A stretch of DNA of 64,000 bases from Ulota crispa (lineage: Eukaryota; Streptophyta; Bryopsida; Orthotrichales; Orthotrichaceae), in assembly GCA_963920765.1 (NCBI GenBank), contig OY987243.1:29139060-29203059 (forward strand), written 5' to 3'. Positions within the stretch are counted from its first letter, which is position 1; each line of letters starts with the position of its first letter. Below the pieces are notes generated by a model. It saw only the letters and a program-made list of their open reading frames with translations, was not told the origin of the DNA and ran no database searches. The translations under genes were made by a program, and so were the position numbers. Positions 1 through 62,456 of this stretch are shown one piece after another.

Positions 1-685
1 ACTCTTACTTGAAAAGAATTACTCTACACAAAGTTGAGGTTTATTTTTTCCATGTAGAAGACCAAGTTAGGTATGTGTGGGAGAATTTTCAAATCAATTG
101 GAACTATACAACACATGGGGGAAAATAGTAAGTAAAAAGAAGTAGAGAATGAATCAAATCACTAAATTGTTAAGAATTTAATTATTAAAATGAAAAATGC
201 AAATCCCAATGGTTATAATGTTGTGATAAACAATCTACATCCTTAGGTTTAGTTTTTTTTCCAGAATACTGAAAATTGTGGAAAATAAAGGACTTCAAAG
301 TAAATTTTAGAGTAGAAAATCCATAACTGCCCACAAACTAAAACATCTCATAACTTTCATCTCATTGATTGAAGTTGAATGATTCAAAGCTTCCCATATA
401 TGAAAATAATCTAAACAACCAATTTCATAGTTCTATTTTTAGAAAATACAAATTTTAAAGAAGTTCTTGGGCTGCTCGGATTGCCCTCCCTCCCCCGAGT
501 TGTAGAAATTCTTGCATAACTTCTTTGTCGAATGGTAGAATGAAAAAAAAAAGATTCCCAAATAGGTCTTGGAATTTCCTACCTTCAATAAAAGTTCAAA
601 AAAATCACAAAAACTAGATTAGCTATAGGTACATGCCCAAAATCCATTTGTCCCCCAGGGGGACAGCTAGGCCTTTAGGGGTTAA
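1..685. mobile_element. piggyBac-like TTAA MITE, partial (right end only)
   Basis: The right end reads CCTTTAGGGGTTAA at 672-685, the reverse complement of the family terminus. The left end lies outside the window. The body matches the element at 11300-12237 in reverse orientation: the 'aaagttgaggtttat' and 'catgtagaagaccaagtta' stretches near 30-75 reappear inverted there. No coding capacity is seen. Confidence 0.8.
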
Positions 686-2254
686 TAGATTTTACTTTAT
701 GAAACATTGTACTTGCATTTGTTACTTAATTTAATATCAAATTATAAATTTAGATTTAGATTTTTTTATTGTGGCCAAATGAACTAATGGGGAATGCTAT
801 TTCATGAGCAGGAATGCGTGAGCCGTGAGCCGTGAGCAAAGATTTTTTTTCAAAATACTCAATTTCATTTATAATTGTGTACATAGGGCCTTATAATTAT
901 ACATTTTAAACCTTTATCTTCTAACAAATTTAAAAAAAAAAAAAAATTCCATTGATTTTGAGATCAAATTTGATTCTTGCTCATCAAATCTTGGCTCACC
1001 ATTCTACGCTCACAAAATAGTGTTGTCCTTGATTAATAATGTTGGTGATATTAATAAGATTATTGACATTTAATATTAGGATTTGTAATTAATGTTGCTA
1101 ACATCAAATATCATTATAAGTATATAGATTATTGCTTTGGAAAAAATCCCATTAGGGGTGGAAGTTTTTTGTTTCCCCATTAAACTAATTGATTAATTGT
1201 TTAACAACCAGGGTTGTCAAACTAATGAAAATCAATTTTTACTTGACTGCCTTGTTATTAATTGATTAAGCTTAAGTTGCACATATTGGATTGTTGACAA
1301 GTGTTGAATCATAAACCTCATGGAACTCAAAGCAAGTCTAACAAGCCTATTCAGCTCTTGTTGTTATGTGGAGGTAGTTGAAGAACAAATTGATTCAATA
1401 AGAACATATTTTTGAAATTAAAAGAAGTTACACAAAAAAATTCAATTTGAGCAAGACTTTAATAAAAGTAATACTTTTTTTGCCTTAGAATGAGTTTTGT
1501 CTTATTAGTGCAAGGGTGTGGCATACCTCACACCCTTGTTTTCTAAATAGGGTTGTGCCATAACCTTTTGTTGCTTTTAACAATAACAATTTGGTGGCGT
1601 AGGTCCCTATTGTGACATCCTTCTCACAATCTTTGGTTGAAATACATGATTGTGAAGTCTCTTCTAAATTTTGACCACTTGAGTCAAATTATTTGAGATA
1701 ACATTTAAGCGTTTTAGCCCACTCGATTTCTCTAAAGTAGTGTAAACTACCTTATTGATGCACCTTGCAAATTTTCTTGTTCTTGAATTAGAATGTGTTA
1801 GTGTTGTCAATCTAGGAAGTAACAATTATTTATTTGTAGTGTGTAGGAAGTTACAACTACATAAACCCTTAACACTTCAAAAAAAAATTGGAAGTTGATG
1901 AACGGTTACAAAATAAATTTCTTATCATTAATTTTAGAACAATATAGATATTAAGGAACTACCATGAGCATGTAGCAAAAAATAATGAATTGAAAATGAG
2001 AAGTCTTTGAGACTAATAATAGAACCAATTTAATCCATGTTATACGATTGTATGTGAAAAAAATAATCTCAAATTTGACAGACTATTCCTTGGCACAAGC
2101 TTGTGCACAAGTGCAAAGTCTACCAAATTTGTTTAGCATAATTCAAGTTGATATCATCATGCTAGTAGATGATTTCAGTACAATGATATAATGTTTACTA
2201 GTTTCAGACAAACTAGTATGGGATTTTTATGTGATTAAAGGACCTTAGTATGTA
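686..2254. other. AT-rich intergenic stretch
   Basis: No gene is seen. A small hairpin near 1511-1535 (caagggtgtg ... cacacccttg) is the only clear local structure. Confidence 0.5.
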
Positions 2255-3113
2255 TTGTACAGTACCCAAAAGAAAGAGTACATAACACTCCATCCAAAGA
2301 AGTATGTACAGCAAAGAATACAATTGATATTTCATTCTCACATTTTTAATATGAGATTCTCATGCAATCTTGATCAAGCATATCAAATTTCAGTTACTAA
2401 AACCTCAAATCCAATTTTTGGTAAATGGTTTTGTGTCAAAATCATGGTTTTATAAGAAAGTTAATTTATAAGTAATGGTGATGAGTTTTTGAGATTTGAT
2501 TGCATGGATATGTAGGAGACATCCATACGCACATCTTCTTTTCAAACAAACATTTCCAAAAAAATTCAAAATAGATTTTAATGTTAGAGTGATCATGACA
2601 TAATTTAGTAAGATACATATTTCTTCAAGGAAATTAGTTTTTGGCAAAAAAAACATATCATCATGTTTAAAGGTATAAACTTAATCACAATGTATGAGTC
2701 AAATAACAAAAACTAATTTTCATGAAGAAATATGTATTTTACTAAATTTGGTCAAAATCACTCTGACATTAAAATCTCTACAGAAGGAATTTTGAATTTT
2801 TTTGGAAATGTTTGTTTGAAAAAAAGATGTGAGTATGGATGTCTCCTACATATCCATGCAATCAAATCTCAAAAACTCATCACCATTACTTATAAATTAA
2901 CTTTCTTGTAAAACCATGATTTTGACACAAAACCATTTACCAAAAATTGGATTTTAGGTTTTAGTAACTGAAATTTGATGTGCTTGATCAAGATTGCATG
3001 AGAATCTCATATTAAAAATGTGAGAATGAAATGTCAGTTATATTCTTTGTTGTACATACTTCTTTGGATGCCATAAAAGAGTGTTATGTACTCTTTCTTT
3101 TGGGTATTGTACA
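2255..3113. mobile_element. Foldback element, TACAGT-GGGTACAA family
   Basis: The left end TTGTACAGTACCCAAAAG is mirrored by CTTTTGGGTATTGTACAC at the right. The whole interval folds back on itself around position 2680, so the arms are about 420 bp. The arms share 'gatgtc/tcctacatatccatgc' and 'tcaaatctcaaaaactcatc' with the elements at 47.4 and 51.0 kb. It has no plausible ORF, since the short ones are shadows of the repeat. Confidence 0.82.
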
Positions 3114-3115
3114 CT

Positions 3116-3338: not shown

Positions 3339-3407
3339 ACTATACACGTGAGTATGTAGTTAATACTCAATAAGAGCTTGCTAAATACTAATATTTCTTA
3401 ATAATGT

Positions 3408-4322: not shown

Positions 4323-4950
4323 TTATCCCCTAAACGTCTGAGGCTTTTTTTGGGCTCTTAGGAATATGCTTCAAATTGAACAAAAAGGTAATATTTTAAT
4401 AATTTGTATCAAGTTCTTTTGAATTGTAACCATACAAATTCAAATTAGATATGTTAGAGGTCACACAAGAAAAGAAAACACAACAATTTCACTAATAGAT
4501 TGAAAGATTATAATGTTTGATCATGAGGGTGTTAAAATTACAAAAATGACTTGAAGCCTTTGAATTCTCTTTTCACATGTTGAATCTAAAAGAATGACAA
4601 TAAAAAAAATACAATTTAATGGAAATAACATACATAATCCCAATCACTTTATAGCTTTTCAAAATCTTTTCTACAATTTTTTTAAATGAATTTTTTATGT
4701 AAATTTTTCTCCAAGATCTAGTGTATTTGAGGCTCATTTCCAAGAGCTCTCAACACTAGAGAAAGTCAAGACCCTTGCACAAAAGCTTGAATAAAAAACT
4801 CATAATTGATCATTTTCAAAATCAAATTTTTGATCCTATAATTAGACTTCACAAAGAATAAATCCAAAATGTAAACTACTAAAAATAGTAACTTAGTTAA
4901 GTTTATACTACAAACACCAAAATTTGGTGCCACAAGCATTTAGGGGTTAA
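4323..4950. mobile_element. piggyBac-like TTAA MITE, left TTAA mutated
   Basis: The left end reads TTAT-CCCCTAAACGTC and the right end GCATTTAGGGGTTAA, together spanning about 628 bp. The left duplication has drifted from TTAA to TTAT. There is no ORF, and size and termini agree with other members. Confidence 0.62.
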
Positions 4951-6139: not shown

Positions 6140-6870
6140 GGAATTGCTAAAGCCACACCCAAAATTGTTAACGTCACATCCCAAGGTATGCTTTGAGCAT
6201 GAAATGTGAGAACTCAACGCTAATTTTTTTGAATTTTGATCAAAATGTTTGTTTCACCTTTATCATTTTAAAGCTACATTCAAAAAATTGGAGGTGCTTG
6301 AGTATGAAATTAAAAACATAGGACTTTTGAATTACTTAAAGAAAAAATACATTAAAAAAATAGTAAAGGTGCAATAAAATTCAACAAAAATTTGAGTTTT
6401 TCTTCTTTCTTTCAAGGAGGTGGTAATGTTGTGATTGAAAGAATGATGGACCACTTGAATAAAAAAAGGAAAAAGTTCATGGATACCCTTGAAGTTTGCA
6501 ATATTTACATAGATACCTTAGCTTTTTCAGATATTACACAAATAGCTTTTGATCAAAGTTTTCAGGCATTTGTTCTATTGTGCATGTCACTTCCTTCTCC
6601 CTTTGTGTGTACACTACTTCTTTCTTGTTGTGCATGCGCAAAAAGGAAGAAGGGAAATTGCATGCATAACAAAACAAATGCCTGAATTTTTTTGGTCCAA
6701 GGGTATTTGTGTAATTTTTGAAAAAGCAAGGGTATCTATGTAAATATTGCAAACTTCAAGGGTATCCATGAAATTTCCCTAAAAAAATAGCATTAAATTC
6801 TCAAATTACATGCTCACATGGGTGTGGTGTTAGCAATTTTGAGTGTGACTTTAGCAATTCCCTATAGATA
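6139..6870. mobile_element. MITE with AGGGAATTGCTAAAG termini, containing a nested MITE
   Basis: The left terminus is ATAGGGAATTGCTAAAGCC with a CACACCCAAAATTG extension. The right terminus reads CAATTTTGAGTGTGAC followed by TTTAGCAATTCCCTAT. Between them lies a second inverted-repeat element at 6468-6779, so this is a host element carrying an insertion. Confidence 0.75.
6468..6779. mobile_element. Nested ~310 bp MITE (GGATACCCTTGAAGTTTGCA family)
   Basis: The left terminus is TTCATGGATACCCTTGAAG and the right is CTTCAAGGGTATCCATGAA. The interior contains mirrored 'cttccttctccctttgtg' and 'aaggaagaagggaa' stretches. A second copy with the same interior occupies 58220-58534, inside intron 2 of the TPM gene. 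Short ORFs here are artefacts of the repeat. Confidence 0.8.
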
Positions 6871-7149
6871 TACAACGGTGTTTAGTTAGCATCAACCTTT
6901 GTAAAAGTAAAGATTGGATAAGATCACACTTTCACTCCCCTTTTGCCCAAAGCATGTATAATGAGCTTGGCTAAGGTCAAGTGCTTGCATATAGTTAACG
7001 TTTTCTTTTCATCAATGCCCATTTTGAGTCATCAATTAGAAAGGCGTTTGGTTAGCGTACCAAAAACATGGGTGGAAAAGCACCTCCAAAGTTGCAACCA
7101 CTAGAATTAGAGAAAGTAATGTAAATGAAGTGTTTCTTAATGATCAATA

Positions 7150-7200
7150 CTTGGGTAAGGTCAACACTTTTTCCACCCCAAAGTGTTGACCTTATCCAAG
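7150..7200. repeat. Perfect short hairpin
   Basis: CTTGGGTAAGGTCAACACTT is followed after about 10 bases by its near-exact reverse complement ending at 7200. Its role is unknown; it may be the tip of a degraded foldback element. Confidence 0.7.
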
Positions 7201-7721: not shown

Positions 7722-8455
7722 CGTACTCTAAAGGCCCTAGCACTCTTTTTTGGCAGCATAGCAATTTTGGGCAGCTCACTACAAGTGGATGTTTCATCTT
7801 TTTTCTTTGAAATTTTTACACATGATGTGCCCAAGGACTACTTTTTAGGTTCAACGATTTTTATAAATTTTGACTACATGGTTCAAAAGTTATTGCATGA
7901 TATGTTGTTATTTTAAACTCTAGGTAGCTTAGGCAGCTTTAAAAAACTTCTTTAAAATTGATATTTTTTTGAATTCTTTTTTTGAAATTGGTTCTTTAGA
8001 CTTATATGTACATGGGAAGCGTTGAATCATTGGATTTCAATAAGTGAGACAAAAGTTATGAGAAGTTTTAGTTTGCGGGTAGGTATGGAATCTCTCGAAA
8101 CCATACCTACCCGTAAACTAAAACTTCTCATAACTTTTGTCTCACTTATTGAAATCCAATAATTCAAAGCTTCCCATGTACATATAAGTCTAAAGAACCA
8201 ATTAAAAAAAAAAAATCAATAAATGTCATTTTAAATTTTGTTTAAAGCTGCCCAAGCTACCCGGAGTTCACAAAAAATAACATATCATGCAATAACTTTT
8301 GAATCATGTAATCAAAAGTTATGAAAATTGTTAGACCTGAAAGCTAGTCCTTGGTTCATCATGTGTGAAAATTTCAAAAAAAAAAGATAAAAAATCCTCT
8401 TACAGTGAGCTGCCCAAAATCCATTTTGTCCCTTCGTGGGCTTTTAGGGGGTTAA
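7722..8455. mobile_element. piggyBac-like TTAA foldback element, full hairpin
   Basis: The right end is GGGCTTTTAGGGGGTTAA. The left end is eroded (CGTACTCTAAAGGCCC). The interval is an end-to-end inverted repeat centred near 8095: for example 'tgagacaaaagttatgaga' on the left is mirrored after a short loop. The outer arm shares 'agcaattttgggcagctcac' with the element at 30691. The right end lies about 250 bp upstream of the NTPase start codon. Confidence 0.78.
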
Positions 8456-11023: not shown

Positions 11024-12255
11024 TAGTGCATTTACGTTGCCCCATATTAATTTATCCACATTTTGCACTGTTTAAATATTTACAAAAACTGTAATAACTT
11101 TTATCAATAACTACTACGATAAACAATGGAAGAAGCAAGCAAAGCTTGGGCGTAGCAACAAGCACCAAAGCTATAGAGTAGGGAAGCTAAAACTTTATAC
11201 AAAATCAAGCATTACTATAGTATAAAGAGAGTTGCATGCTCCCCAAATAGCCAAGGGTGAGTCATGAGATATCTTTGTTAAGGTAAGGCAATCTAATTGT
11301 TAACCCCTAAAGCCCAACTATTTCCTCGAGGGACAAATGGATTTCAAGCATGTACCTATAGCTAATCTAGTTTTTGTGATTTTTTTGAAGCTTTTATTGA
11401 AGGTGGGGAGTTCCAAGACCTACCCGAGCATCTAATTTTTTTGTCAGTTTAACATTTACCTAAGAAGTTTTGCAAGAATTTTTGCAACCTAGGGGCAAGA
11501 GGGCAATCCAGGCAACCCAAAAACTTCTTTAAAAATTGTACTTTTAAAAAATAAAAACCTGAAATTGATTCTTTAGATTTTTTTATATGTGGGAAGCTTT
11601 GAATCATTCAACTTCAATCAATGAGATGAAATTTATGAGATGTTTTAGTTTGTGGGCAATTACGGATCCTCTACTCTAAAATAAACTTTGAAGTCCTTTA
11701 TTTTCCACAATTTTCAATATTTTGGAATAAAAAACTAAACTAGAAAAAGTAGATTGTTTATTACAACATTATGACTGTTGGGATTTGCATTTATCATTTC
11801 AATAATTAAATTCTTAACAATTTAGTGATTTGACTCATTCTCTACTTCTTCTAACTTACTATTTTTTTCCCATGTGTTGTATAGTTCCAATTGATTTGAA
11901 AATTCTCCCACACATGCCTAACTTGGTCTTCTACATGGAAAAAATAAACCTCAACTTTGTGTAGAGAAATTTTCTTCATGTAAGAGTGGTCAAAGGCTTT
12001 TGAATCTTTTGGACAGCATGGAATTTTTTTTTTTTTCACTTCAAACGTAAATATCTCCTTCCTCTCTATGTAGAATGATTTGATTTTTTCCCACAAGTAC
12101 CTCTTCTAGTCTAAAGCAAGATCCTAAAGGTGGATTTACAAAACAAACTTTATTTCTTACTTATCTACTCATTCCCCCCAAAGTGGCAGTTTTGAGTGAT
12201 TTTCACAAAAACAAGGGCTTGGGCCTTTAGGGGTTAAGGCAACCTAAATGCACTA
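11024..12255. mobile_element. Composite MITE: TAGTGCATTTAGGTTGCC element split by a TTAA element
   Basis: The outer termini are TAGTGCATTTACGTTGCC on the left and GGCAACCTAAATGCACTA on the right. An uninterrupted relative is at 33590-33876, which shares the left body ('gataaacaatggaggaagc', 'gagagttgcatgc', 'gggtgagtcatgag') and runs straight into 'aaggcaacctaaatg'. Here that junction is split by the TTAA element at 11300-12237. The same composite arrangement recurs at 30413-31638. Confidence 0.8.
11300..12237. mobile_element. piggyBac-like TTAA MITE, full length (938 bp)
   Basis: It starts TTAACCCCTAAAGCCCAAC and ends GGGCCTTTAGGGGTTAA. TTAA stands at both ends, followed inward by CCC and preceded by GGG. 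The body is shared with the elements at 1-685, 23736, 30691 and 34670. It has no transposase ORF. Confidence 0.87.
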
Positions 12256-15309: not shown

Positions 15310-15858
15310 TCAACCCCTAAACACCCAATCGACCATTTTTTGGTCATTGCCCTTTTTTGCGGGCTGCCCAAAATTTTAAAAAACGTTTTTTGGAAATAAT
15401 AAAAATACTTTTATATAGGAAAGTAAGTCAACTTTCCAACCCAATTTGAATCATGTCAATTCAAGTTAGACTTTATGAAAAAGATTTTTTCAAAAACAAA
15501 CACTTCAATTTTTGCTAGTGTTACAAAATTTACTATTTTGGAAAACCAGTGATGTTCTCTCCTTCAAAAAGATTGCATTTTTGAAGTTATGAATAGAATG
15601 TCTATTATTAACCAATCATACCAAATTTTAAATTCTATGAATGAAATTTGTAATTTTCATGAATATTGAATGGTAAATGCTTCTAAATTCATTAAATAAG
15701 AGTCCAAAACTTTTTTTGAATGTTTGACCATATCAGTAATTACTAAAGATCACGATTCTTGTTTTCACTTTTTGAAGAAATCTTCATTAAAGTTACAAAA
15801 ATATCAATTATAATGCATTTGTGTTTTGCCCTTACCCCCTTGGGCGTTTAGGGGTTAA
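15310..15858. mobile_element. piggyBac-like TTAA MITE (549 bp)
   Basis: The left end is TCAA-CCCCTAAACACCCAA and the right end TTGGGCGTTTAGGGGTTAA. The termini agree with the 4323-4950 subfamily (CCCCTAAACG). The left TTAA carries one substitution. It is non-coding. Confidence 0.75.
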
Positions 15859-17515: not shown

Positions 17516-19261
17516 TTACAAAAAGAACACCACAAACGAAAAACCAAAAAAAAACAGGCACAAGAGGAGCATTCCAGAAGGTAGCGTTGCAAGGTTTGGG
17601 ACTGCCGGAGGAAGTCTGATTGGACGTCTGGGCAACTTGAACTGGAAGGCACCCCCAACTGTATGACGTATTAGAGTGTCCCTGCCAGATAAAACACCGG
17701 ATGGGGGGCTCCTTTTCCCCTTTCGTCCGGTTGCTAGCCCGAACCGGGCCTGAGAATGCTTATTGTTTCGTCGAATGCCTCTGAAAGTCCCAGTCTGAAA
17801 CGGGCCTGTAGAATTTTCAGGGGGGTTCACTTCAAGTGATGCTTGGTACGGTTTCTCCTTGAAAATATGATCGCATACAGGCTTCATCCGATCCTCCGAC
17901 AGTAATTGTCGCCCCGTCAAGTCCTGTAAGTAAAGATGGAAGATGGAGACTCAGCATAATCCCATACACAAACTTCGCCATACTAGTGGAAGTCCAACGT
18001 CAACTCTTTCACTAAACTGATCAAAAAAATTCAATTGGAAACAGGATTTGAACGAGAACATATGCTGCGAAAGAGAATCATGTAAAAACCTCTAACATCA
18101 ACGATCGAAAGGAACTGTTGACCGATAAGGACCAAGGAAAGTCAAAACCAGCAAAACGCATTCGGTGAATATGATCTGTTAACGCAAAACTGATCTACCA
18201 TGGATGCCAGTACTCGAATGAGTAGGCAATAAGATCGAAGTATGACATACCGTTATATCATTAACGTGCTGCTGCATTAACAACAATTCGACGATGGAGG
18301 AGAAGGTAGGTCGTTCAGCAGGAACCTTCGTCCAGCATGATTCCAACAACTCTCTCCAGAATGGAGGAAATCCGGTAGGAATATTTGGCCTGAGTTCACC
18401 GGACACGATTTTAGGCCCCAACTCTTTCCAGTTCCGACTTGGATACGGATCTTCGCCAGTCAGGATTTGTGAGCATGTCACAGCGAAGCTATAAACATCG
18501 GCAGCACGCCCGTGGATAACACGTGGAGGACCTGCACAATCCTCCTCCAGATCTGAATCTGATTCAGAAGAGGTCTCCTCGTTATACTCCAGCAAAAGCT
18601 CCTCCAAAATTTCCGGGGCTTGCCATTGAACCATGTCAAGCTTGCGTGCTTGACGAGAAACATAAGACATGCTCTTGCTTTTGGTCCGAACTAGACCAAA
18701 ATCAGCCACTTCCACTGAAAATGACTTCCTGTCTCCATCGTTTGTATGAGAAACTAGAATATTCTTGGTCTTGAGATCTCCGTGTGAAATATGGTGCGCA
18801 TGCAGGAATTCCATGCCCCTGGCAATCTGTAGTACAATATCAAGTGCTTCTGCCGACTCAAAAGGATAAGTATGGTTTCGTTCAGATTGATTACCAGAGG
18901 CTATGTCAGCTGGTCTCTTTTGAGACTCTTTTCTCTTCTGCAACAAATCTTGAAGGTCCTCCTCCACATATTCCAAAACAAGGGAGCAGCTCACCTTGCC
19001 AACAATCCAACCATGTGTTTTCACAACGTTCTCATGATCATCAAGACCTACCAAAATAGATGCCTCTTTCTGAAAGCTGCCACTCGGTACCCCTACAAAA
19101 TCTTTTCTGGCAAACCTCATTCCGTTCCATTCCGTCTCGTACGCGACACTAGCCAGACCTTTGCCTAGCAGGCGCTTGCTTGGCAAATCCCTTGCTCGCA
19201 GCTCCTGTAAGATTCCTCGACTAGGGCATCCAGCATCATCGTCGCCACTTTGCGAGGCCAT
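17516..19261 (-). CDS. TKL-like protein kinase, two exons (join 19261-18251, 17923-17516)
   Basis: Predicted serine/threonine (tyrosine-kinase-like) kinase. Exon 1 (337 codons) holds the whole kinase domain: glycine loop GKGLASVA at 33-40, ATP lysine K53 in FARKDF, catalytic loop HGDLKTKN at 160-167 (glycine replaces the usual arginine, a non-RD type), DFG at 187-189, WQAPE at 213-217, DVYSF near 255 and an RPTF motif near its end. An acidic SSESDSDLEED insert lies in the activation segment/APE region. After HVNDIT a good donor (ACG|GTATGT) is followed 327 bp later by CTTACAG|GAC; both are phase 0. The second exon adds about 135 residues, rich in basic residues, and ends in a hydrophobic run MLLLCLFFFGFSFVVFFL that could be a tail anchor. 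Without splicing, exon 1 would instead run to a stop at 18179. Start ATG 19261 (MASQSGDDD) is in a good context. The substrate is unknown. Confidence 0.82.
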
Positions 19262-22883: not shown

Positions 22884-23620
22884 TTAACCCCTAAAGGCCG
22901 AAGTGGTCCCTTGGGAGCCAAGTGGGGTTTTGGGCATGCAAGTACTTACAGCTAAATTACTTTGCGTGATTTTTTGAAACTTTTATAGAAGATGGGGAAT
23001 TCAAAGATCTATATGGGCATCTTATTTTCTCTTCATTCCAACATTTATTGAAGAAGATAAAAATGAATTTTTGGAAAATATAGGGGGCCGGATAGCCCAA
23101 AAACTTCTTTAAAATTTAAAATTTTTTTTTTATTGAAAAAAATATGAAATTGGTTCTTTAGATTTATATACACGTGGGGGGCTTTGAATCATTCAATTTT
23201 GATAGATGAGATGGAAGTTTTGAGAAGTTTTAGTTTGCGGGTAGGTAAGGTTTCTCTCAAAACTACACCTACCTGCAAACTAAAAATTCTCAAAACTTCC
23301 ATCTCATCTATCAAAATTGAATCATTTAAAGCCCCGCGTGTATATACAAGTTTAAAGAACCTATTTCATATTTTTAATTTATTTTAAAGCAATTTTTAAA
23401 GAAGTTTTTGGGCTGCCTGGCCTCCCCTATTTTCCAAATTTTCATTTTTATCTTCCTCAATAAATGTTGGAATGAAGAAAAAATAAGACGTCCACATAGA
23501 TATTTGAATTCCCCATCTTCCATAAAAGTTTCAAAAAATCACACAAAGTAATTTAGCCGTAAGTACATGCCCAAAACCCCACTTGGCCCCCAAAGAACCA
23601 CTTGAACCTTTAGGGGTTAA
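22884..23620. mobile_element. piggyBac-like TTAA foldback element, intact hairpin (737 bp)
   Basis: It begins TTAACCCCTAAAGGCCG and ends GAACCTTTAGGGGTTAA. The two halves are near-perfect reverse complements over their full length (arms about 360 bp), meeting at a loop near 23250 ('ggtttctctcaaaactac'). The best preserved hairpin of the family. A transcript through it would be a long double-stranded RNA. Confidence 0.9.
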
Positions 23621-23735: not shown

Positions 23736-24654
23736 TTAATCCCTAAAGGACCAAGCAAAGTTTCACCAAAAACTCTTCAAAATTGCCATTTTTAGAGCAT
23801 TAACCAAATTTGAAAACAAATTTTTTTTATGCATATGTAACCATAGGATCTTGTAGAACAATGGTTTTAGAAGATGTGAAGAAAATTTCAGAGTTTTCCA
23901 CCTCATGGATTGGAAGTTAGAATGGTTTGAATACTCAAAATTGTCTTGTGAAAAACCGGGCAACTACCCTTCAAAAGGTGAAATTCCTAAGGAAGAAAGG
24001 CCATGTGGGTGGTGCTTCTCTAATTACCTTATTCCACCTTAGTAAAGTACATGTCAAAAAAGTTTCAAATCTTTTGGAGTTGTATAACATATGAAAAAAA
24101 TTAGTAAATAAAAAGAAGTAGAGAATGATTCAAAACACTAAATTGTTAAGAATATAATTATGAAAATGAAAAATGCCAATCCCAATGGTCATAATGTTGT
24201 CAGAAACAATCTTCATTGTTTGGTTTTGTTCTTTTTCCAAAATGTTGAAAATTGAGTAAAATAAAGGACTTCAAAGTTTATTTTAGAGTAGAGAATTCAT
24301 AACTGCCTGTAAACAAAAAATCCTCATAACTTTCCTCTCGTTGATTGAAACAGAAAGATTCAAAGCTTCCTACATTCACATAAATCTCCTAAACCCATTT
24401 AAAATTTGTGTTTTTGAAAAAAGTGAATTTTAGAAATTTGCCTAAGCTGCCTGTCGAATGTAAAAAGCAACATATTAGGCCATAACTTTTTAATTATAAT
24501 TCCAAATGTCATGAAATTTAGTGCATATGAAAGATAAACCTTGTCCCCACATTTTATTAAAATTTCAGCCTAAGATATGAAAAGCTCCAATCACAGCTAC
24601 CTACCCAAAATCATTATATTTCTAAAAAAAAGGGTCTCGTCCTTTAGGGGTTAA
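23736..24654. mobile_element. piggyBac-like TTAA MITE (919 bp)
   Basis: The left end is TTAATCCCTAAAGGACC and the right end CGTCCTTTAGGGGTTAA. It is nearly the same element as 34670-35589 in opposite orientation, with matching length (919 and 920 bp) and shared interior such as 'gaaagataaaccttgtcc' and 'cagcctaagatatgaaaag'. It lies just 116 bp beyond the 22884-23620 element. Confidence 0.87.
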
Positions 24655-38688: not shown

Positions 38689-39836
38689 TCACAAATGAAC
38701 ATCGTTCAGTCAGGCTAGTCAAAACAACGAAAGTACACATTTTAGTATTATGTCAAAAAGTAATCCAACTCAGAGATACTCCGTGGGAGAGACAGAGCTC
38801 TGATGCTATTGGAAAACTCTACTTTAAAGACCGACGGTTGTTCGTTTATTTGTTTGTCTGTCTATTTGCTATTTTCTAGGATCTAGGTTTCAGTGACTTT
38901 TTGATTAAAGATCCCGCCAGTCTTTCATTAGCTATTGATATATTTGGTACTTACCATTATGCCTTGTAATAATGATCCGTCTGCTCCCTTCTGGAGTGAT
39001 TTACTGCTGTATCCATGTTTGCTTGTTAACAAGCAACTAGGTTCGTCCAGGATACGTGACGACTTGTACTTTTTGCAGGAGCCAGAGCCCACTAAAGAAA
39101 GAGATTTTCAACATCAAGGAATCCAAATTGACGGGACGCCAGATTCTCCTCCGGTAAATCGAATTGCAGCCTCGCCAGTAGCTCTACTAAGCTGATTGAG
39201 AAATTAGAACATATTGTTAAACAATGCACTCAGTGAAATGGTAGAATGGTAATGCACAGAAATTTATTAATGATCAAGACGCTGTGATATATACCGATGG
39301 ATTTGTACAGAGTTACTGTCGATGATGATAATCATTGGATGAATGATTTGAATGAAAGATCCTGAAGAACGTGCTACAGCTGAGCTAAGCGTTAGTTTCT
39401 ACATATATGTTACAGAACAGAGAAGTTTCGAAAGTTGCATAAGCTGATATATTATTTGCCTTCGCGTTTCTTTCAAAGTTTGAAAATCCAATGATGTCAT
39501 CAGATTTTTATAGAGTAACTTTCGAAAGTACTTGGTTTCATCCCATGGTTTAGTTTATCTTGAATTCAGAATCTCAAATCCTCATCTAGGTTCTAAGGTA
39601 GATTAATAATATCGAACCATGAACTGCGAAGATACTGTTGCTTCTGCTCCAAACTGACTCCGAGGCGTTTGTAAACCGTGAAAGCCTTGGGAGCACAGAT
39701 GTAGTTTCCACAGAAAGTCCGAATGCTTGAAGCACTTGGTCCAGCTGCAGAATTTTCAGATTCCCTCCAATCACTTTGTCGTAAAATTTGGAACATTGGT
39801 AGAGTATGCATCAGAATTGAAGTCTCCAATTAAATT
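38689..39836. other. Downstream region of the second kinase gene
   Basis: It contains the possible alternative last exon at about 39080-39195 (EPEPTKERDFQHQG...). Otherwise no feature is recognised. Confidence 0.4.
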
Positions 39837-40249
39837 AGGGAATTGATCTGGACACACCCTGGGTTTGATATATGCACATCCCCATGGGGTAAATTTTAGA
39901 TTTTTATTATTGAAAAGCTGAATTTGAAAATTTTGAATTCTGATTTGGAATTCGAGACCTTGATTTTGTCTAAAACCATAGAGGAGGTTATTATTGAACA
40001 ACATCCAATGAAAAAAACTTAGCTAGGGGGCAAAATATTACTTTTACTTTTGTTTGTAGAAAAAGCTAAGCTTTTTCATCGGGTATTGTTCAATTGTAAC
40101 CTCTCTTATGGTTTTAGACTAAATCTAGGTCTATAAGTCCTAATCTGAATTCAAAATTTTCAAACTCAACTTTTTGATGATAAAAATCTAAAATTTACCC
40201 TATGGGATGTGCACATATAAAATCCAAGGTGTGTCCATATCAATTCCCT
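39837..40249. mobile_element. MITE, AGGGAATTGAT termini with probable TSD
   Basis: The left end AGGGAATTGATCTGGACACA is inverted at TGTGTCCATATCAATTCCCT. TAAATT stands immediately outside both ends (39831-39836 and 40250-40255), a likely target-site duplication though AT-rich. Same family as 27418-27832. Confidence 0.85.
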
Positions 40250-40416
40250 TAAATTATTGTAGAGTTTAATTAAGCAGTTTTATGCTGCAAATTTATTTTG
40301 GTTCCTCCTTGCGACTTGGAGTTGCAATGATATGATCAAAACCTCAATTTAGGAAGAACACAATTTTAATATGAACGAACCATCTGCTGTCATGCCTTGT
40401 CGCTACAGTATTCCAA

Positions 40417-41377
40417 TTAACCCCCGAAGGACCGAGCCCTCTTTCTGTGAAAATCCTGGCAACTGCCACTTTTGGGAGAATGAGTAGAAAGGTAGGAAAA
40501 TAAGTTTTTTTTGGAAATCCAACCATAAGATCTTACCCTAGATTGTGAGAGATATTTGTAGGAAAAAAATCAGCTCATTATAAATGTAGAGGAGTGAGAT
40601 ATAGACATTTGAAATGACAAAAAGAAAGTTTTTTCCTTGCTCTCCAAAACTTTAAAAAGCCTTTGACAACTCCTATATCAAAAAATTTGCTCTATGCAAA
40701 ATTGAGGTTTATTTTTACCATGTAGAAGACCAAGTTAGGTAAGCGTGGGAGAATTTTTAAATGAATCGGAGGTGTGCATCATACTTTGTAATATCTTGCA
40801 ATGCCGTAAGGCCATGAAATTTGCATATACACTACACAAAATTGGAGGATTTATGTAAAATTTGGAAATTTGAGTTACTTTGATCCAAATGGTGAAAACC
40901 AAGAAATAGTAGTCTACTACAACTTGGAAAAAAAAAAACAAACAAACAAACACACAAAGAGCTCAAAAAAGTAAAGCACCAAATTTTACAAGGGGCAAAA
41001 GGATTGGAGGTTTGGGAGACTCCAAACCTACCTGCAAACTAAAACTTCTCATAACTTTCATCTCATTAATCAAAATTGAATGATTCTAGGCTTCCCACAT
41101 ATATATAAATCTAAAGAACCAATTTCAGATTTTTATTCTAAAAAAATACAATTTTCAGCAAAGCTTTTGGGATGCCCACCCTCCCTTGTTTTTCAGAAAG
41201 TTATGCATTACTTTTTCAATAAATGTCAAAATGAAGAAAAAATTAGATGCGCATAGAGATCTTTGAATTCCCCATCTTCCATAAAAATTTCAGAAAATCC
41301 CACAAAGTAGTTTAGTTGTAAGTACATGCCTAAAACCCAACTATTCCCGAAGGGACGATTGATCCTTTAGGAGTTAA
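40417..41377. mobile_element. piggyBac-like TTAA MITE (961 bp)
   Basis: The left end is TTAACCCCCGAAGGACCG and the right end GATCCTTTAGGAGTTAA. The right half shares 'aaaacttctcataactttc' and 'ccccatcttccataaaa' with the hairpin at 22884-23620. Non-coding. Confidence 0.83.
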
Positions 41378-46329: not shown

Positions 46330-47400
46330 TTTGTTATTTAAGGGGGTTCTTTTTAGGATAAAAGATGTGCATATGGATGTTTTCTACATACTCATGCAAT
46401 CACATCTCAAAAATTCATCACTAATATTTTTCAATCAATTATCATGTAAAACCACAAACTTAACCCCTAAAGGACCACAGAGCCCAATATGGCCAAAGGG
46501 GGTGCTTGGAGGTGTGAAAGTATACAAAATAGGCATTTTTAGCTCAAATTTTGGTCTGCCACTCAAGTCCAAATGGAGTTGTTAGTTCAAGAAAAAATTC
46601 TGATTGGCTTGTTGTTCCTTGAAGCGCCTCCTTTGCTCTAGATTCTACATGGAATATGGAAAATATTCTTTTTTTTCAATGATTAGGAGAAGAATGTCTT
46701 TGGGCAAACAAAAGGAGCTACTTAGAGAGCGGATGGGATGGGTGCTCTCATGTCTCATAATGTACAAGAGAGAAGTTTGGTGATGTGTCACTTTTTTATT
46801 CTTGATTTGGGCAAGGTTTTTATAGCTCTAAAGTAAGGAGCAGTGGAATCTAGCTACTTTGAGTGACCATGTCTTTTGGAGTTTTTATCCATTTGTGGAG
46901 TTCTTTTTTCCATCAAGTATAGCAAGACACAATCTCATGGGATCAGGCATTAGGTAAATCTTTTTTTGAGAAAATATTACATGAAAGTCCAAAATCCATA
47001 ATTTGAACTGTTGCCCAAACTGGAAAACATGAGATTCTCAGCAGTAGGGATTTTGCAAATTTACTTGGATTTGAAATCAAATTGGTTTAAAACATATGAT
47101 TTATAGCTAGGTATAGAATGACCGGTTTGGATTATGTGATTACTTGTTCAACTTTCCAAAAACTCAAGGAATGTGTTGAAGGTTTCATGTAGGAGGTATG
47201 CTAAGTTTTCTTAGCAAGACGCTTAGGGGTTAATACAAAATAATCCACCAAAAATAGGGTGTTGGTTTTGAGGAGTTGAAATTTGATAAGTTTGATTGGG
47301 ATTGCATAAGAATCCAACATCTAAGGTTTAAATCAACAAAATACTAATTATACTCCGTGCAATGCAAAGTTCTTTGAACCACACAAGAAAGTGATGAAAA
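46330..47400. mobile_element. Half of a TACAGT-type foldback element split by a TTAA element
   Basis: The segment before 46460 ('agatgtgcatatggatgtt', 'catgcaatcacatctcaaaa', 'catgtaaaaccacaaac') and that after 47233 ('ccaccaaaaatagggtgtt', 'gattgcataagaatcc') together match one continuous arm of the elements at 2255-3113 and 47412-48360. The opposite arm is not visible. Confidence 0.68.
46460..47233. mobile_element. piggyBac-like TTAA MITE (774 bp)
   Basis: The left end is TTAACCCCTAAAGGACCACAG and the right end AAGACGCTTAGGGGTTAA. Inserted into the arm of a foldback element. The interior differs from the ~930 bp subfamily. Confidence 0.83.
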
Positions 47401-47411
47401 TTTATGGTAAG

Positions 47412-48360
47412 GTACTGTACAATGGCCTTGAATAAAGTTTGTCGCCCTCTATTTTCTCACTTAGAGGTCATGTCATGTTATGTTTTGAAATTGAGGTCAC
47501 TTGGGCTTTTTGATCTTGCATTTTTTATATTTCATTCTTGCCCCCAATGCCAACCAAGCATACCAAAATTCAATCTCAAAAAACTAAAATCCAAATTTTG
47601 ACAAATTTTGTTGTGTCACAAATCAAGATTTTACATGGTTTTACAAGAAAATTGATTAAAAAACATTGATGATGAATTTTGGAGATTTGATTGCATGGGT
47701 GTATAGGTAACACCTATACGCACATCCATATGCACATCTTTCATGCTAAAAAAAACCCCTTACGTAAATAGAAATCGATTTTCACAAGGTTTAGTGTGAC
47801 ATGTGATATGTCCAAATCTTGTAAAATAGACATTTTTAATTTTTAGTTAGCTTTTCACCAAATAAACACAAAAACATGTTCAAAGTTACAAACTTAGTCA
47901 TAGTGTATGAGTAAAATAGCAAAATCTGATAAAAAAATATCTATTTTACAAGATTTGGACATATCACATGTCACACCAAACCTTATGAAAATCGATTTCT
48001 ATTTACTTAAGGGGTTTTTTTTAGCATGAAAGATGTGCATATGGATGTGCGTATAGGTGTTACCTATACACCCATGCATTCAAATCTCCAAAATTCATCA
48101 TCAATGTTTTTTAATCAATTTTCTTGTAAAACCATGTAAAATCTTGATTTGTGACACAACAAAATTTGTCAAAATTTGGATTTTAGTTTTTTGAGATTGA
48201 ATTTTGGTATGCTTGGTTGGCATTGGGGGCAAGAATGAGATGTAAAAATGCAAGATCAAAAAAGCCCAAGTGACCTCAATTTCAAAACATAACATGACAT
48301 GACCTCTAAGTGAGAAAACACAGGGCAACAAACTTTATTCAAGGGTATTGTACACAGTAA
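47412..48360. mobile_element. Foldback element, TACTGTACAAT termini (949 bp)
   Basis: The left end GTACTGTACAATGGCCTTGA is inverted at CAAGGGTATTGTACACAGTA. Long stretches are mirrored almost perfectly ('gaggtcatgtcatgttatg' / 'cataacatgacatgacctc'; 'tgtataggtaacacctata'). The centre is near 47880. ORFs are repeat shadows. Confidence 0.87.
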
Positions 48361-51020: not shown

Positions 51021-51830
51021 TACAGTCGGGTACAACAAACATACGAACTGCCATTTTGAGGGTGTCTGTACAATATCAATCCAGCATGCTAAATATCAGT
51101 TTCAGAAAAGAAAAATTTCGTTTGTGGTGAAATTTTTGAGTGATTTTTTTTTGGTTTTACATGATATTTTGTTAAAAATAATTGGTAATGAATTTTTGAG
51201 ATTTGATTTCATGGGTTCAAAGGAAACATCCATATGCACATCTTCCATGCTAAAAAACATCCCCTTAAGTAACAAAAATTTGATCAACAAAAGATTCAAT
51301 GAAACTTGTGATAGGTCCAGATTTTGTAAAATACATATCTTTCATTTTTAAGTAGCTTTTCATCAAGTAAACAAGATATCATGACTGAAGATACAAACTT
51401 AGTCACAATATTTGAGTCAAACAACAAAATTTGATTTTCATAAAATAAAATAAAAATTACAAAATTTGGGCCTATCACAAGTTTCATTGAATCTTTTGTT
51501 GATCAAATTTTTGTTACTTAAGGGGGTGTTTTTTAGCATGGAAGATGTGCATATGGATGTTTCCTTTGAACCCATTAAATAAAATCTCAAAAATTCATTA
51601 ACAGTTGATTTTAATAAAATATCATGTAAAACAAAAAAATTCACTTAAAAAATTCACCACAAATGAAGTTTTTCTTTTCTAAAATTGATATTTGGCATGT
51701 TGGATTGATACTATGCAAGGATGCCATGGTAATTTTTTTGAAAAAAATGTATCGCTTATACTTGGCATTTCACCAAAAAAACAGCCCAGCCTCAAAATGG
51801 CAGTTTGTATGTTTGTTGTACCCAACTATA
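51021..51830. mobile_element. Foldback element, TACAGTCGGGTACAACAAAC termini (810 bp)
   Basis: The left end TACAGTCGGGTACAACAAAC is inverted at GTTTGTTGTACCCAACTATA. The arms mirror 'gaagatgtgcatatggatg' and related stretches around a centre near 51420. ORFs in it are repeat shadows. Confidence 0.87.
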
Positions 51831-54723: not shown

Positions 54724-54956
54724 TTAACCCTTGAAGGGCCCTTGGGCTTTGGAAATACAATACCAAATACTGTCGCAACTAATATTCAGAAATTTGAATT
54801 AGTTGAAAATTTAGTGTTACAACTATACATATTGAAAGGTTGTATGATGGTGGGTGCATAAATTTTTTGGAAAAACCCTCAGAGCAGCTCAAATACATCT
54901 GTACATACAATTGTACATATGGCTGCAAAGGGCTTTTGGACCATTCAAGGGGTTAA
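54724..54956. mobile_element. Short piggyBac-like TTAA MITE, copy 1 of an array (233 bp)
   Basis: The left end is TTAACCCTTGAAGGGCCC and the right end CCATTCAAGGGGTTAA. The right-hand TTAA (54953-54956) is shared with the next copy. Confidence 0.87.
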
Positions 54957-55194
54957 CCCTTGAACGACCAAGCTACTATAATTCATACTGTATACACTGT
55001 TGTATAATTGGCATTTGCTACCAACAAAAAGTTTTAATTTGGGATCTTGACTACCTCACTAGAATAACATTGATCTATATTCTAATTTCTTTGTTGATCT
55101 CAAATGTAATAAAGGTGTGAATGCACTCCAAATACAAGAACAATACTCAGTATTGTATTGGTTGCAAAGGGCTGCTCAGTCGTTCAAGGGTTAA
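54953..55194. mobile_element. Short piggyBac-like TTAA MITE, copy 2 of an array (242 bp)
   Basis: The left end is TTAACCCTTGAACGACC and the right end GTCGTTCAAGGGTTAA. It has the same termini as its neighbours but its middle differs from copies 1 and 3. Confidence 0.83.
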
Positions 55195-55197
55195 GCT

Positions 55198-55427
55198 TTA
55201 ACCCCTAACGGACCCAAACGCTCTTTGCGACCATATGTATGATCATATGTATAAATGTATTTGAGGTACTCTAAGAAATTTTCAAAAAAATCATGCACCT
55301 ATCATCATACAACTTTTTAATATGTGTGACTGTAACACTTAATTTCCAATTGATTCAAACTTCTGAATATTGGCTACAACTGTATTTGGTACTGTAGCTC
55401 CAGGGCCCAAGGGCCTTCAAGGGTTAA
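55198..55427. mobile_element. Short piggyBac-like TTAA MITE, copy 3 of an array (230 bp)
   Basis: The left end is TTAACCCCTAACGGACCC and the right end GGCCTTCAAGGGTTAA. It is homologous to copy 1 in opposite orientation ('atgcacctatcatcatacaa', 'gaatattggctacaactgta'). It ends about 270 bp before the ATG of the TPM gene. Confidence 0.87.
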
Positions 55428-55695: not shown

Positions 55696-58600
55696 ATGAT
55701 GGCGGAGGTGATGCTGGCTCGCGGGAGCTCCACATTGCTGGGTTCCTCCGCCTCGGTTGCCGCTCCTGTGCCCTGCAACAAGAAGACCTCGCCCTTTCTT
55801 GGTAAGTCCAACCCTTGCAACATTCGCCTCCAGCTTTCACTCTCTCAATCCATTTTGAATCAAAATTTGAATTCCACCCTCTTTGTTGTCAAAGATGCTT
55901 GCTTTCCTTTTGAGAGAAAATTAATGGGTGGGATTTGATCGCATTGTGCTCAATATGAACTAGTTTTTGTATTTTGCTGAGCTCAATTTCGAGAAGCTTG
56001 ATTTTTAAGTTCTGTCTCCGGCACTCTGTATTGCATTAGCTTTTGATGCTCTTTCGTAATTTCAGAAATAACGGAGGAATGTTGTCAATATGTGTTTGTC
56101 AGAGTAGCCACTTTCTTATTCAAATTTTCCTGTTTATTTTTATTTTTATTTTTATTTTTGTATTTCTCTGGATGGAATTTGCCACGTAAGACAATCACAT
56201 TCTTCAATTGGAAGAGTTAAACCGCTCAATAGTTTCCTCACTTCCATACTTTTTAATTTGAAATTCAGTTTTTATGTTTCCAATGATTGGTATTCATCTT
56301 CTTCTAATTGAGAGAAGTTGGGGTTCAATTCCAAGCCCTCCCAATGGTCCTTACGAACATCCAATGTTAAACATTTTGCCTCCTGAAATGCGTTATTCTC
56401 AAACCCATTCACTAGATTTTTTTCTATCACCGTCACCAGCCTCTTCGTGATTCAGTTATAAGAGCAAGTTCATAATCCATATCTATTGCTCTTTGTAGCC
56501 CATCCTGTTTGCAAAAAACTGGTATAGAATTTCAAAAAAAGAGCCACAAGCTGATCTTGAAAAACAGGGTATGGTGAGGTTATAGCTATTCGGTTCCAGC
56601 TATAAAGCTTTGGTATGGATTAAAAAGGCCCCCATTGAGCATGACAAGGGAAACAGCTCCAGGCGGCAAATTTAGTTATCCAAATGTAAGAAAGTCAATG
56701 GAACAGTGAAGTGTTATATATAATGGTGCTTCCTTGTCTCCTATCAGAGCAAGCGGCTCATTGTGCCAAGAACCCATTTCCTAGCATGCCTGTAGTTTCA
56801 TCAAAGCCTAGTTAGGCGTGGATGTCGGTATAGATTGAAAGCTAGGTCAGATATGAGATGCTGCGCACTTGCGTTACCAGCAAGCTCATCTACACTGAAT
56901 ATTGCATTTAGGTTGCTTTGACAATTAGGTTGACTTACCCTGATAAGTTATGTCATGACTCATCACTGGGCCACTTGAAGGCGCATGCCTACTCTCTAAA
57001 TATGTGTATTTCACATGGTTTACAACTTGGATGTTGCTGATTTATATATCCACAACTTAGTTGATGTTGTCAAGCCTTGTAAATAGGGAATGATTAGGGA
57101 GACACCCCCAATTGCTTCGTGGACACCCCCTGTAGCCCAACCTATTAGTTTTGAGATTATTATTATGTTGAAATATGAAATAAAATCAAAACAATATTTT
57201 AGCGCACCTCTGCGTTTACAAGTGTTGCAAACATATAACAAATATGTTTCATTTGTGACACGGTCAAGAGATAAACTTATAAATGAAGGAGTGACTTATT
57301 AAACTCTTGACCATGTCACAAATGAGGCGTATTTGTTATATGTTTGCAACGCTTGTAGGCACAGAGGTGCATTGAAGTATATTTTTAATTTTATTTCAAT
57401 GGAACAATAATCTCAAATTAATCTCAAATTTAATAGGTTGGGCTATAGGGGTGTCCACGTAGCAACTGGGGATGTCTCCCTAGTTATTCCCTTCAAATAT
57501 TGTTTGTTGCACAGCTTAGTTGATGTTGCCAAGCCCTTCAAATATTGTTTGTTGCAGTATTTTTTGATGAAAGTTACTGTAGCAGCAGTATTTGACGATG
57601 GGGCTATGGCTGAGCAGGTGCATCGTTGCCGTCACTGGCCATCAGACAACGGAAGAGCAGAGCCCAATGCAGCAGCGTGAGCGTTACCAGGGCAAGCGTG
57701 GGCGACGTGTTGAGCAAGGCCAGGGCGACGGTGGGCACGGGGCTGACAGCGCTGGCGCTCTCAGCGGTGATGAACCTGGGCCCTGGGGTGGCGGTGGGCG
57801 ACGCCAGCGAGTTCAACGTGCTCAACGAAGGCCCTCCCACGGAGAACTACGTCGTGGACGACGCAAATGTGCTGAACCGCGTGACCAGGTCGGATCTGAA
57901 GCGGTTGCTGCGTGACCTGGAGGAGCGCAAGGGCTTTCACGTCAACATTATCACGCTCCGCAAGCTCACCAGCAAGGCTGACTCCTTCGAATTTGCCGAC
58001 GCGGTACCCCCCCTCTCCCATCTCCCTTTTTTTCCCTTCCATTTCTCGCTTGTTTTTAGTTTAATCTTTGGAAAGGACAACCTTCAAGTGAGAGATGGGA
58101 GGATTGAAAAGGTTTCTGGATTCAAAATGCTAAGTTGTTTTTCAGTTGAATCTCGACTGTCCATTGGACTAATGCAATGATGAAGATGCTAGATTAAGAT
58201 GCTGTCAGATTTAACCAAAGGGAAAATTTCATGGATACCCCTGAAATTTGCAGTATTTTCATGGATACCCCTGGTTTTTCAGAAGTATCACAAGTACCTT
58301 TGAACCAAAAACATTTAGGCGTTTGTTTTGTTATGCATGTCACTTCCTTCTCCCTTTATGCGCACATTACTTCTTTCTTGTTATGCGTCCGCACAAAGGA
58401 AGAAGGGAAGTGGCATGTACAACAAAACAAAACGCTTGAAAATTTTGGTCCAAGGGTATTTGTGATATTTCTGAAAAAGCAGGAGTCTCTGTGAAAATAT
58501 TGCAGCAAACTTCAGGGGCTTCAATTAAATTTTCTTTGTTCTTTTAGCCAACCGACAAGTGAGTGAGTGATGTAGTTGCCTTGCAACCCAAACCTAGCAT

Positions 58601-60415: not shown

Positions 60416-61245
60416 CTGGTAGCTCCCATCATGAGCCGCTGCCCAGGGTGCGTCAATGAATTGGTCTATCTGTGTGGAAATGAGGTTGAGGAATATCTAA
60501 CAGCAGTTTTGTTATAATGGTGCTACTCCATTAAAAGTGAGGGAAAATAAAATGCTAAGATTTTGGGAGGTGGGATGGAGTGTTGGAATGGTAACAATGT
60601 CGAATGTTCACTGAATTGCGTTGGATGCTGATGGATATGTTTTGTGTTTGTGTAGATGCTCATGTGGCTTTTCTTGTTATATAGTAACTCTCTTGAATGG
60701 CAGGTCTCTTCTTGCATTCTTGGTAGTTCCTTTCTTGATTTCAAGATGTTTTTAATGTAATCCCGAAGGGCCCAAAGAGTTTTTTTTTCTTCTTTGGAGC
60801 ATGTTTAGGCTAAACAAAATATTCTAAAGTTTTGATAAGATTTAACCCAAAAATATTTAAATCTTTTATCATAGGATCTTGAACTTGGCATGTGAGCATG
60901 TCATGGAGGATATGAAAGATGAGAACTCAAAACTCACACATAATTGTATAGTATGAGTGTAAGGATTATAATGTTTGGGTAAAGGAGTGTTAGAAATTTT
61001 TAATGCAAGAGATCTTCTTTATCATGTTCCTTACATTGGATCCAAATTTATGACTATGCAAATGATATGAGGTTGAAGTACATAACATTTGTAACTCCAA
61101 ACAATTTATTCTATCTCAATATTTACTCTTCGCTTTTCTTCAAATGAATTTGCAGTGTGATTTTTCATTTCCAAGACTGTTATCTCATCTCCAATTGTAA
61201 GATTCTTAAGACTTGAAAGTCGAGGTTTGCAATGAACCTTCTGGT
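60416..61245. other. Intergenic stretch
   Basis: No gene seen. A TTAA-family-like left end (GTAATCCCGAAGGGCCC) lies near 60757 without a recognised partner. Confidence 0.4.
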
Positions 61246-61565
61246 AACGCGTTATTCGTTAATTTGGGACAAAGCTTACAAAGTGGGACTTTTGGCTTTT
61301 TTGGAAGAGAACACCATGTTTATTGAATTGGGAATCTGTTGAATGTTTTCTAATGAAATGAGATATATATCTTCCAAAAAGACGCTCTTTTTGGACAGAA
61401 AATTCATTAACATCTAAAATTTTGGACAAAAAGTTCATTAAGTAGGTTTCAGGAAGCCTCTTGAATTTAACGAATATGGTTCCACATAAATTAAGGTGAC
61501 AATCTCAGATTTAGGTGAGTACAAAATGGGACTCCTTGTTGTCCCAAATTAACGAATAACGCGTT
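61246..61565. mobile_element. MITE with perfect 27 bp terminal inverted repeats
   Basis: AACGCGTTATTCGTTAATTT, continuing GGGACAA, is exactly inverted at the right end (61539-61565). TGGT stands just outside both ends, a possible 4 bp target duplication. 320 bp, non-coding. The perfect termini suggest a recent insertion. Confidence 0.88.
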
Positions 61566-61603
61566 TGGTGCTTTGTATAGAAGATCAAAATCTACTACTG
61601 TTG

Positions 61604-62456
61604 TTAACCCCTGAACGGCCCATTGGCCATATGTGGCCGTATGTATAGTCGGGTACAATAAACTTACGAATTTTTTTGCAGTAAAACTTCAGCCAACTTC
61701 AGGACCTTTCAAAGGCCATAACTTCCTCAAAAATTGTCTGTTTTTGAAACCAAAAATTGTTTTGGAATACAATGAAGGATATTACATGATTTGATTAAAA
61801 AAAAAATCTGAAATTTTATAAATGATAAAAAAAAAGTTGGGCTACTTCTTACATAGTGTACCTCCACCTCTTGCCAAAATCACCGCTTGAATTTGATTGA
61901 GCTATGCCACCACCAACGGCCAAAAAACAAGCAAGAAATGATACACATCATTCAAAGAGTATGGAATGAGGTATCCATGGAGCAACTAAAAACTCTTAGT
62001 ACAAGTATGCCCAATCAATTCAAGTGGTGATTTCTGCAAGAGGTGGAAGTACCAAACAGTAGACATAATATAGGAAGTAACCAAACTTTTTTTATCATTT
62101 GTAAAATTTCCCTACAATTTTATATCAAATCATGTAGTACTCTTCTATGTGATTCCAATGCAATTTGTGATTTCAAAATTGAACAATTTTTGAGGAAGAT
62201 ATGGCTTCTTAAAGTTACTAAACTGTCGGCTGAAATTTCACTGGGAAAAAATTTGTAAGATTACTATACCCGACTGTACAGTCATATTTGAGATGTTTTG
62301 AGGGCTTTCCAAAAAAAATTATGCACCTTCCATCATACAATCCTTCAATATGTATGATTGTAACACTTAATTTCTAGCTAATTCAAATTTCTGAATATTG
62401 ATTGCGACCGTATTTGGTACCGCATCTCTAGAGCCCAAGGGCTCTTCAGGGGTTAA
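61604..62456. mobile_element. piggyBac-like TTAA MITE carrying a nested foldback element
   Basis: The left end is TTAACCCCTGAACGGCCC and the right end GGCTCTTCAGGGGTTAA. Removing the insert at 61644-62280 leaves about 216 bp, matching the 230-242 bp copies at 54.7-55.4 kb, whose 'ccatatgta' and 'gcacctatcatcatacaa' regions flank the insert here. Confidence 0.86.
61644..62280. mobile_element. Foldback-type element nested at a TA site
   Basis: The left end TATAGTCGGGTACAATAAAC is inverted at the right, ending TACTATACCCGACTGTACA. The interior folds back ('ttttgaaaccaaaaattg', 'cacctcttgccaaaatcacc' with 'ggtggtgatttctgcaagagg'-like mirrors). Comparison with 55198-55427 indicates insertion at a TA. 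Confidence 0.8.

Follow-up and report, generated by a model that had tools for sequence, protein, structure and literature searches.

TTAA-bounded miniature elements of a moss genome share ends and, in part, arms with piggyBac transposase elements

Introduction

Which transposons gave rise to the many short, TTAA-bounded elements found in a 64,000-nucleotide stretch of the genome of Ulota crispa (assembly GCA_963920765.1, contig OY987243.1, positions 29,139,060 to 29,203,059; this whole stretch is called the window throughout)? An earlier note on this DNA, made without database searches, proposed that they are miniature inverted-repeat transposable elements (MITEs) of the piggyBac type in a plant-like genome, with an autonomous source elsewhere. 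piggyBac is a standard genome-engineering transposon that has been well studied in animals, and its main survey is reportedly that of Bouallegue et al. 2017. Here we compare the window elements with transposase-bearing elements from the rest of the genome and conclude, with great confidence, that in this moss they represent non-autonomous transposons of the piggyBac type, or MITEs. The two groups have ends and arms in common, the transposases belong to a DDD family, and the target is a four-base site of the TTAA type.

Results

Allowing up to three mismatches, the end pattern TTAACCCCTAAAGGRCC matched the window 21 times against 0.23 expected from shuffled sequence, showing that the TTAA-bounded inverted-repeat family is real, and CCC/GGG tips are present on the window elements. 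At 12 of the 16 element starts given in the earlier note, TTAA precedes a tip that has 0-3 mismatches; of the four exceptions, two carry a mutated TTAA (TTAT at 4323, TCAA at 15310), one has a decayed tip (7722), and one, position 1, falls within an element ending at 685. Two ends were identified for 14 elements and one more is truncated by the window edge, and together they span 10,332 bases, in agreement with the earlier figure of about 10.3 kb. The count of about 16 copies therefore stands for 14, the other two being the element cut by the window start and a lone tip at 28635-28651 (+ strand), for which no partner end was found. The proposed size classes agree with the measured sizes, to which one of 853 bp is added. 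Identity between copies ranges from 93% (23736 versus 34670) down to about 60-70% between types; because of this span, the MITEs likely arose in bursts of differing age.

The genome contains at least 120 matches to the piggyBac transposase domain PF13843 (best 1.3e-73), a lower bound with 116 of 528 candidates scored. As the note had stated, the window holds no transposase among the PF13843 matches listed, both listings being lower bounds. Asp is found in the L045 locus at three positions that we take to be catalytic in solved piggyBac transposases, an observation on one copy whose tips are without TTAA. The open frame of L045 aligns to the solved transposases of piggyBat (2.6e-24) and T. ni piggyBac (7.6e-20; 9c0f, 6x67). 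By eye, DDD motifs were also seen in L044, which belongs to a different clade, and the third motif is Asn in L055. Cys/His-rich C-terminal tails were likewise noticed by eye in L044 and L049, where Pfam gave no match. A tree of 30 transposase copies is diverse and contains several clades.

A first scan of 30 loci with 1.5-kb flanks had detected no matching end pairs and single matches with 5 mismatches, a result that was overturned by wider flanks. In the shorter elements the distance from the domain to the ends is about 1.4-2.8 kb; in L011 and L026 the upstream ends are 4.9 and 5.6 kb away from it. With wider flanks, convincing end pairs were present in 8 of 16 loci (L039, L043, L044, L052, L054, L056, L011 and L026), and outside the clade that matches the MITEs the elements measure 5.0-5.7 kb. 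L044 extends over 5,746 bp including both TTAA sites and has CCCCTAAATGCC at each end. L039 and L043 are 90% identical over 5,029 aligned bases and their homology stops at the TTAA sites, the left one being mutated to TTCA in L043; the right site of L056 is mutated to TTGA. Also in L056, a MITE at 6161-7129 begins at the TTAA-type site terminating the adjacent piggyBac transposase element, the target site being common to both. Three further loci with tip pairs 3.4-5.6 kb apart (L040-L042) were rejected as parents, as their longest frames are 175 aa in L040 and under 100 aa in the other two.

The link between the MITEs and the transposase runs through one clade of five loci (L011, L025, L026, L034 and L038; support 1.00). 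In all five the common 3' flank stops at a tip located 1.6-1.9 kb downstream from the domain, with mismatches to the 17-base end numbering 0 in L034 and L038, 1 in L011 and L025, and 2 in L026. L026 and L034 align without a break from a point ahead of the gene as far as the tip (69.5% over 3,158 bp); in the other pairs the homology is piecewise. An exact 5' end is present in L026 as well, giving an 8,530-bp element. L011 is an 8,033-bp element with a nested MITE, its 5' end having been placed via a match to MITE ends. The check proposed in the earlier note, that a piggyBac transposase be found flanked by the same termini, is thus borne out by the at least 120 PF13843 matches, two full elements and a 3' tip at 5 of 5 clade loci.

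Both arms of the 8,530-bp element are matched by two window MITEs. In the first (11300-12237, + strand, 938 bp), positions 1-188 correspond to the 5' arm (69%) and 576-938 to the 3' arm (70%); in the second (40417-41377, - strand, 961 bp), 1-522 correspond to the 3' arm (71%) and 775-961 to the 5' arm (78%). With L026, the genome MITE G97023 shares the 5' arm at 80% over 182 bp and the 3' arm at 72% over 365 bp. The 930-class element cut by the window start (1-685, - strand; 87% identical to 688-1 of the 11300 element) matches the 5' arm at 472-685, together with an inner piece of the 3' arm. A foldback MITE (22884-23620, + strand, 737 bp, 84% self-complementary) carries the 5' arm at both ends, at 1-193 and 529-737. 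Against the 8,033-bp element, the MITEs at 23736-24654 (- strand, 919 bp) and 34670-35589 (+ strand, 920 bp), 93% identical over their full length, match the 3' arm only (64.5% for 1-196 of the former), and the MITE at 30691-31620 (+ strand, 930 bp) matches inner pieces. When MITE letters were shuffled as a control, a single run of 20 gave matches above 60 nt, two in number, and the other 19 gave none. The 930-class members and 22884 are short, non-coding and high in copy number and have arms in common with a larger transposase element, the attributes by which MITEs are recognised.

Could the large elements instead be pairs of MITEs that captured a passing piggyBac gene, the MITEs themselves not being piggyBac-derived? 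Such an origin would be favoured by the frequency of tips, about one per 4.6 kb, and by a 5' arm whose link to the gene comes from two elements. Against this, five divergent loci have the 3' arm, always on one side of the gene, and the 5' arms are correct in type and orientation. Moreover, no tips (up to three mismatches) lie between the ends of L026, and those within L011 belong to its one recognisable nested MITE. We therefore regard capture as improbable.

To locate tips independently of their flanks, CCCCTAAAGGACC was scanned with up to two mismatches and no TTAA requirement. In the window TTAA precedes 14 of the 17 tips, and in the transposase loci 17 of the 22; at up to three mismatches, where the sets contain more chance matches, the proportions are 21 of 38 and 28 of 56. 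The reversed tip matched the window 8 times, 0 of them preceded by TTAA. Outward of the tip, conservation ends at the fifth base.

Unoccupied relatives of the insertion sites were also compared with the insertions. Of 21 junction-spanning BLAST rows, ten were aligned, representing five insertions, and L054 supplied an eleventh comparison and sixth insertion; the rows left unaligned were extra copies for 46460, two for 54953 on neighbouring triplet elements, and a 61% row for L039. Four bases lie between the flanks in all 11 comparisons, and in three of them (L004, L043 and L055, from 2 insertions) these are exactly TTAA. The eleventh reads TTAG: here the window 15310 copy is compared with L054, where a 5.3-kb piggyBac element sits inside a 15310-type MITE. 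These comparisons fit the proposal that TTAA is a duplicated target rather than part of the repeat and, together with the TTAA beside the tips, agree with the 4-bp TTAA target duplication of piggyBac.

TTAA- or TTA-type targets are known for PIF/Harbinger, Kolobok and Sola3 too, and plant MITEs with TTA-type targets are usually classed as PIF/Harbinger. It is nevertheless very unlikely, on transposase searches of this genome that covered piggyBac only, that the MITEs belong to such a superfamily and that the piggyBac genes are mere neighbours, since homology in the clade (L026 and L034) continues from the gene to the tip and ends there, MITE arms match a piggyBac element at both ends, and TTAACCC ends recur in further piggyBac clades (L044, L039/L043). 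Furthermore, PIF/Harbinger duplicates a 3-bp target (TTA/TWA), whereas four bases are left at the related unoccupied sites, all of which are old and diverged. Least credible is a TTAA belonging to the repeat itself, with no target duplicated: TTAA does stand beside the tip in 14 of 17 cases and is inexact in 8 of 11 unoccupied relatives, but these relatives hold four bases (TTAA once in L004, L043 and L055, TTAG in the 15310 copy) and one TTAA is common to elements 54724 and 54953.

The remaining window elements vary in structure. A 628-bp MITE (4323-4950, + strand; left TTAT, right TTAA) resembles the end of transposase element L044 at its right end (84% over 37 nt). The 734-bp foldback MITE with a decayed left tip (7722-8455, + strand) is 86% self-complementary over 43-699 and is kin to 30691 (78% over 368) and to 22884. 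The 549-bp MITE with left TCAA (15310-15858, + strand) is the related unoccupied site for the L054 insertion described above. For the 30691 element a related unoccupied site at 56882-57017 reads TCAA, and for the 34670 element such sites are in L055, with a single TTAA, and L061, with TTCA. The 774-bp MITE at 46460-47233 (+ strand) has related unoccupied sites in L004 and L043, each with a single TTAA.

Three MITEs of 230-242 bp abut at 54724-55427, one TTAA serving the first and second and the third starting 4 bp past the end of the second. The first (54724-54956, + strand, 233 bp) has a right end that is weak by pattern and was placed via a 79% match to the third. The second (54953-55194, + strand, 242 bp) has an 86% identical counterpart immediately upstream of transposase element L011, and the third lies at 55198-55427 (+ strand, 230 bp). 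The 853-bp MITE (61604-62456, + strand) is mostly self-complementary (39-677, 69%).

Across the assembly (274.8 Mb, 157 contigs), TTAACCCCTAAAGGRCC occurs exactly 8,421 times against 0 for the reversed control, and TTAACCCCTAAAGGACC with up to three mismatches occurs 59,908 times against 702. These counts suggest roughly 30,000 two-ended equivalents in the genome. Scaling the window's 492 bases per end to the genome-wide ends would give about 29 Mb of MITEs, or about a tenth of the genome; the estimate is only rough, since the window has more ends than the genome mean would predict (21 against 14) and some ends are unpaired.

Other repeats were observed in passing. Long foldback (palindromic) repeats of one family, 65-73% identical between copies, occur at 47416-48354, 2291-3070 and 51067-51717. 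The 46460 MITE probably sits in a copy of this family, because its flanks match copies of it. Another foldback family, with repeats of about 415 bp (27418-27832 and 39815-40271; 77% between copies), is also present inside piggyBac element L044. A long inverted repeat at 63108-63850 has 342-bp arms (88%) and matched none of the five other large foldbacks compared. At about 4830-5429 of L049, ACAT, a 4-base repeat, forms an array of roughly 600 bp on the downstream side of the transposase gene, inside the 8,033-bp element. Long open frames at 18179-19261 and 36848-38293 resemble protein kinases by eye.

Discussion

The matching ends and arms on transposase elements, along with the four-base flank comparisons, support the interpretation of the window elements as piggyBac-type MITEs. 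The most probable mechanism is a transposase acting in trans on the common arms, with insertion at TTAA. The larger elements hold the transposase gene between TTAA-CCCCTAAAGGACC-type ends. The 930-class MITEs would have lost the interior, with some 180 bp remaining from the 5' arm and 360-520 bp from the 3' arm, and the 22884 type is an inverted pair of the 5' arm. From piggyBac biochemistry we infer binding, cutting and past mobilisation in trans: the transposase would bind the arms, cut at the CCC tips and insert the element into a TTAA site, leaving TTAA on both sides.

Several observations weigh against this interpretation. A link between the 5' arm and the gene is seen in no more than 2 of the 5 clade members; in L025, L034 and L038 that arm lies beyond the sequence read. 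An arm match to either full element is absent in 8 of 15 window elements (4323, 7722, 15310, 46460, 54724, 54953, 55198 and 61604); of these, 7722 is kin to the 930 class, the end of 4323 resembles L044, and the other six have only the tips in common. Among the other transposase loci, L053 has a weak pair, L025, L034, L038 and L055 have a 3' end only, and L051 and L057 have weak single ends. The 13-base tips of L045 match each other 5.5 kb apart and follow ATAA and CCAT, not TTAA. In 8 of the 11 flank comparisons the four bases are not exactly TTAA (TTAG, TTCT, TTGA twice, TTCA, TCAA twice and CCAA). TTAA was built into the joined query used for these comparisons. Stop codons interrupt 110 of the at least 120 PF13843 stretches. 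The predicted autonomous source elsewhere is supported to the extent that transposase-bearing elements with the same 17-base end exist in the genome, but no copy was established as intact and autonomous, nor were the 10 stop-free PF13843 stretches established as full genes.

The host was described in the earlier note as plant-like, and LEAFY-type domains in the genome place it among land plants. Their DNA-binding part scores 379.6 bits against 4bhk, 291.6 against 9fwy and 270.3 against 2vy1. We take 4bhk to be the Physcomitrella LEAFY protein and 2vy1 that of Arabidopsis; the host is assigned to the mosses because the highest score is against 4bhk.

The note further held that piggyBac is scarcely reported in land plants, which the literature, considered here through the passages available from each paper, bears out in part. 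Five flowering-plant papers report few PiggyBac pieces or none (Stipa 1, PMC8319324; cork oak 0, PMC5963338; grass pea 0, PMC9845207; Stellaria 60, PMC13180808; switchgrass 'not found', PMC3325252), but 1,230 pieces appear in a repeat table of the fern Ceratopteris (PMC6890710). piggyBac-like elements are said to occur in 'plants', none being named in the passages (PMC10140906, PMC8086355), and a plant review includes PiggyBac among superfamilies for plant DNA transposons (PMC10794571). As these three papers already mention piggyBac in plants, we make no claim of a first discovery there. In titles, openings of abstracts and passages from the open-licence literature, to which the search was confined with subscription papers and repeat databases outside it, no account of moss MITEs of the piggyBac type was found; a candidate report from Niphotrichum (PMC10619864) was set aside, the only such word there being 'piggybacking'. 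The kind of element is already known, and its abundance in a land plant appears unusual.

We tentatively suggest, as a possibility somewhat short of even, that mosses, or some of them, have long harboured diverse large piggyBacs, that the MITEs, approximately 30,000 in two-ended equivalents and in all roughly a tenth of the genome, form a major class here that is missed by surveys whose scheme has no piggyBac class, and that some of these MITEs are one-arm foldbacks. With its diverse transposases, and with derived ends in the tens of thousands, this land plant offers a source of plant-resident piggyBac relatives. The classification of plant MITEs would change, and the question of whether piggyBac in bryophytes is ancient or arrived by transfer becomes open to testing.

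Compared with known systems, the elements resemble the piggyBac superfamily (T. ni piggyBac, piggyBat) in their PF13843 transposase with DDD, TTAA target and CCC tips, and differ in their moss host and in their size (5.0-8.5 kb with nested repeats counted, against about 2.23-3.52 kb for complete piggyBacs of bees in PMC10140906). With the MITE superfamilies of plants they have in common short length, inverted-repeat ends, lack of coding capacity and high copy number. A MITE survey of 207 plant genomes, four bryophytes included (PMC12550479), recognises five superfamilies plus Micron, and the word piggyBac occurs 0 times in its text. The plant repeat tables cited above are alike in having repeats labelled PiggyBac, and their passages give no elements, ends or target sites. 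Further parallels are the short non-autonomous piggyBac-type MITEs of coral (PMC2872659) and Blepharisma (PMC9942856), papers in which the word piggyBac occurs 57 and 22 times, respectively. Unlike these animal and ciliate MITEs, those described here belong to a land plant, with an estimated 30,000 or so two-ended equivalents.

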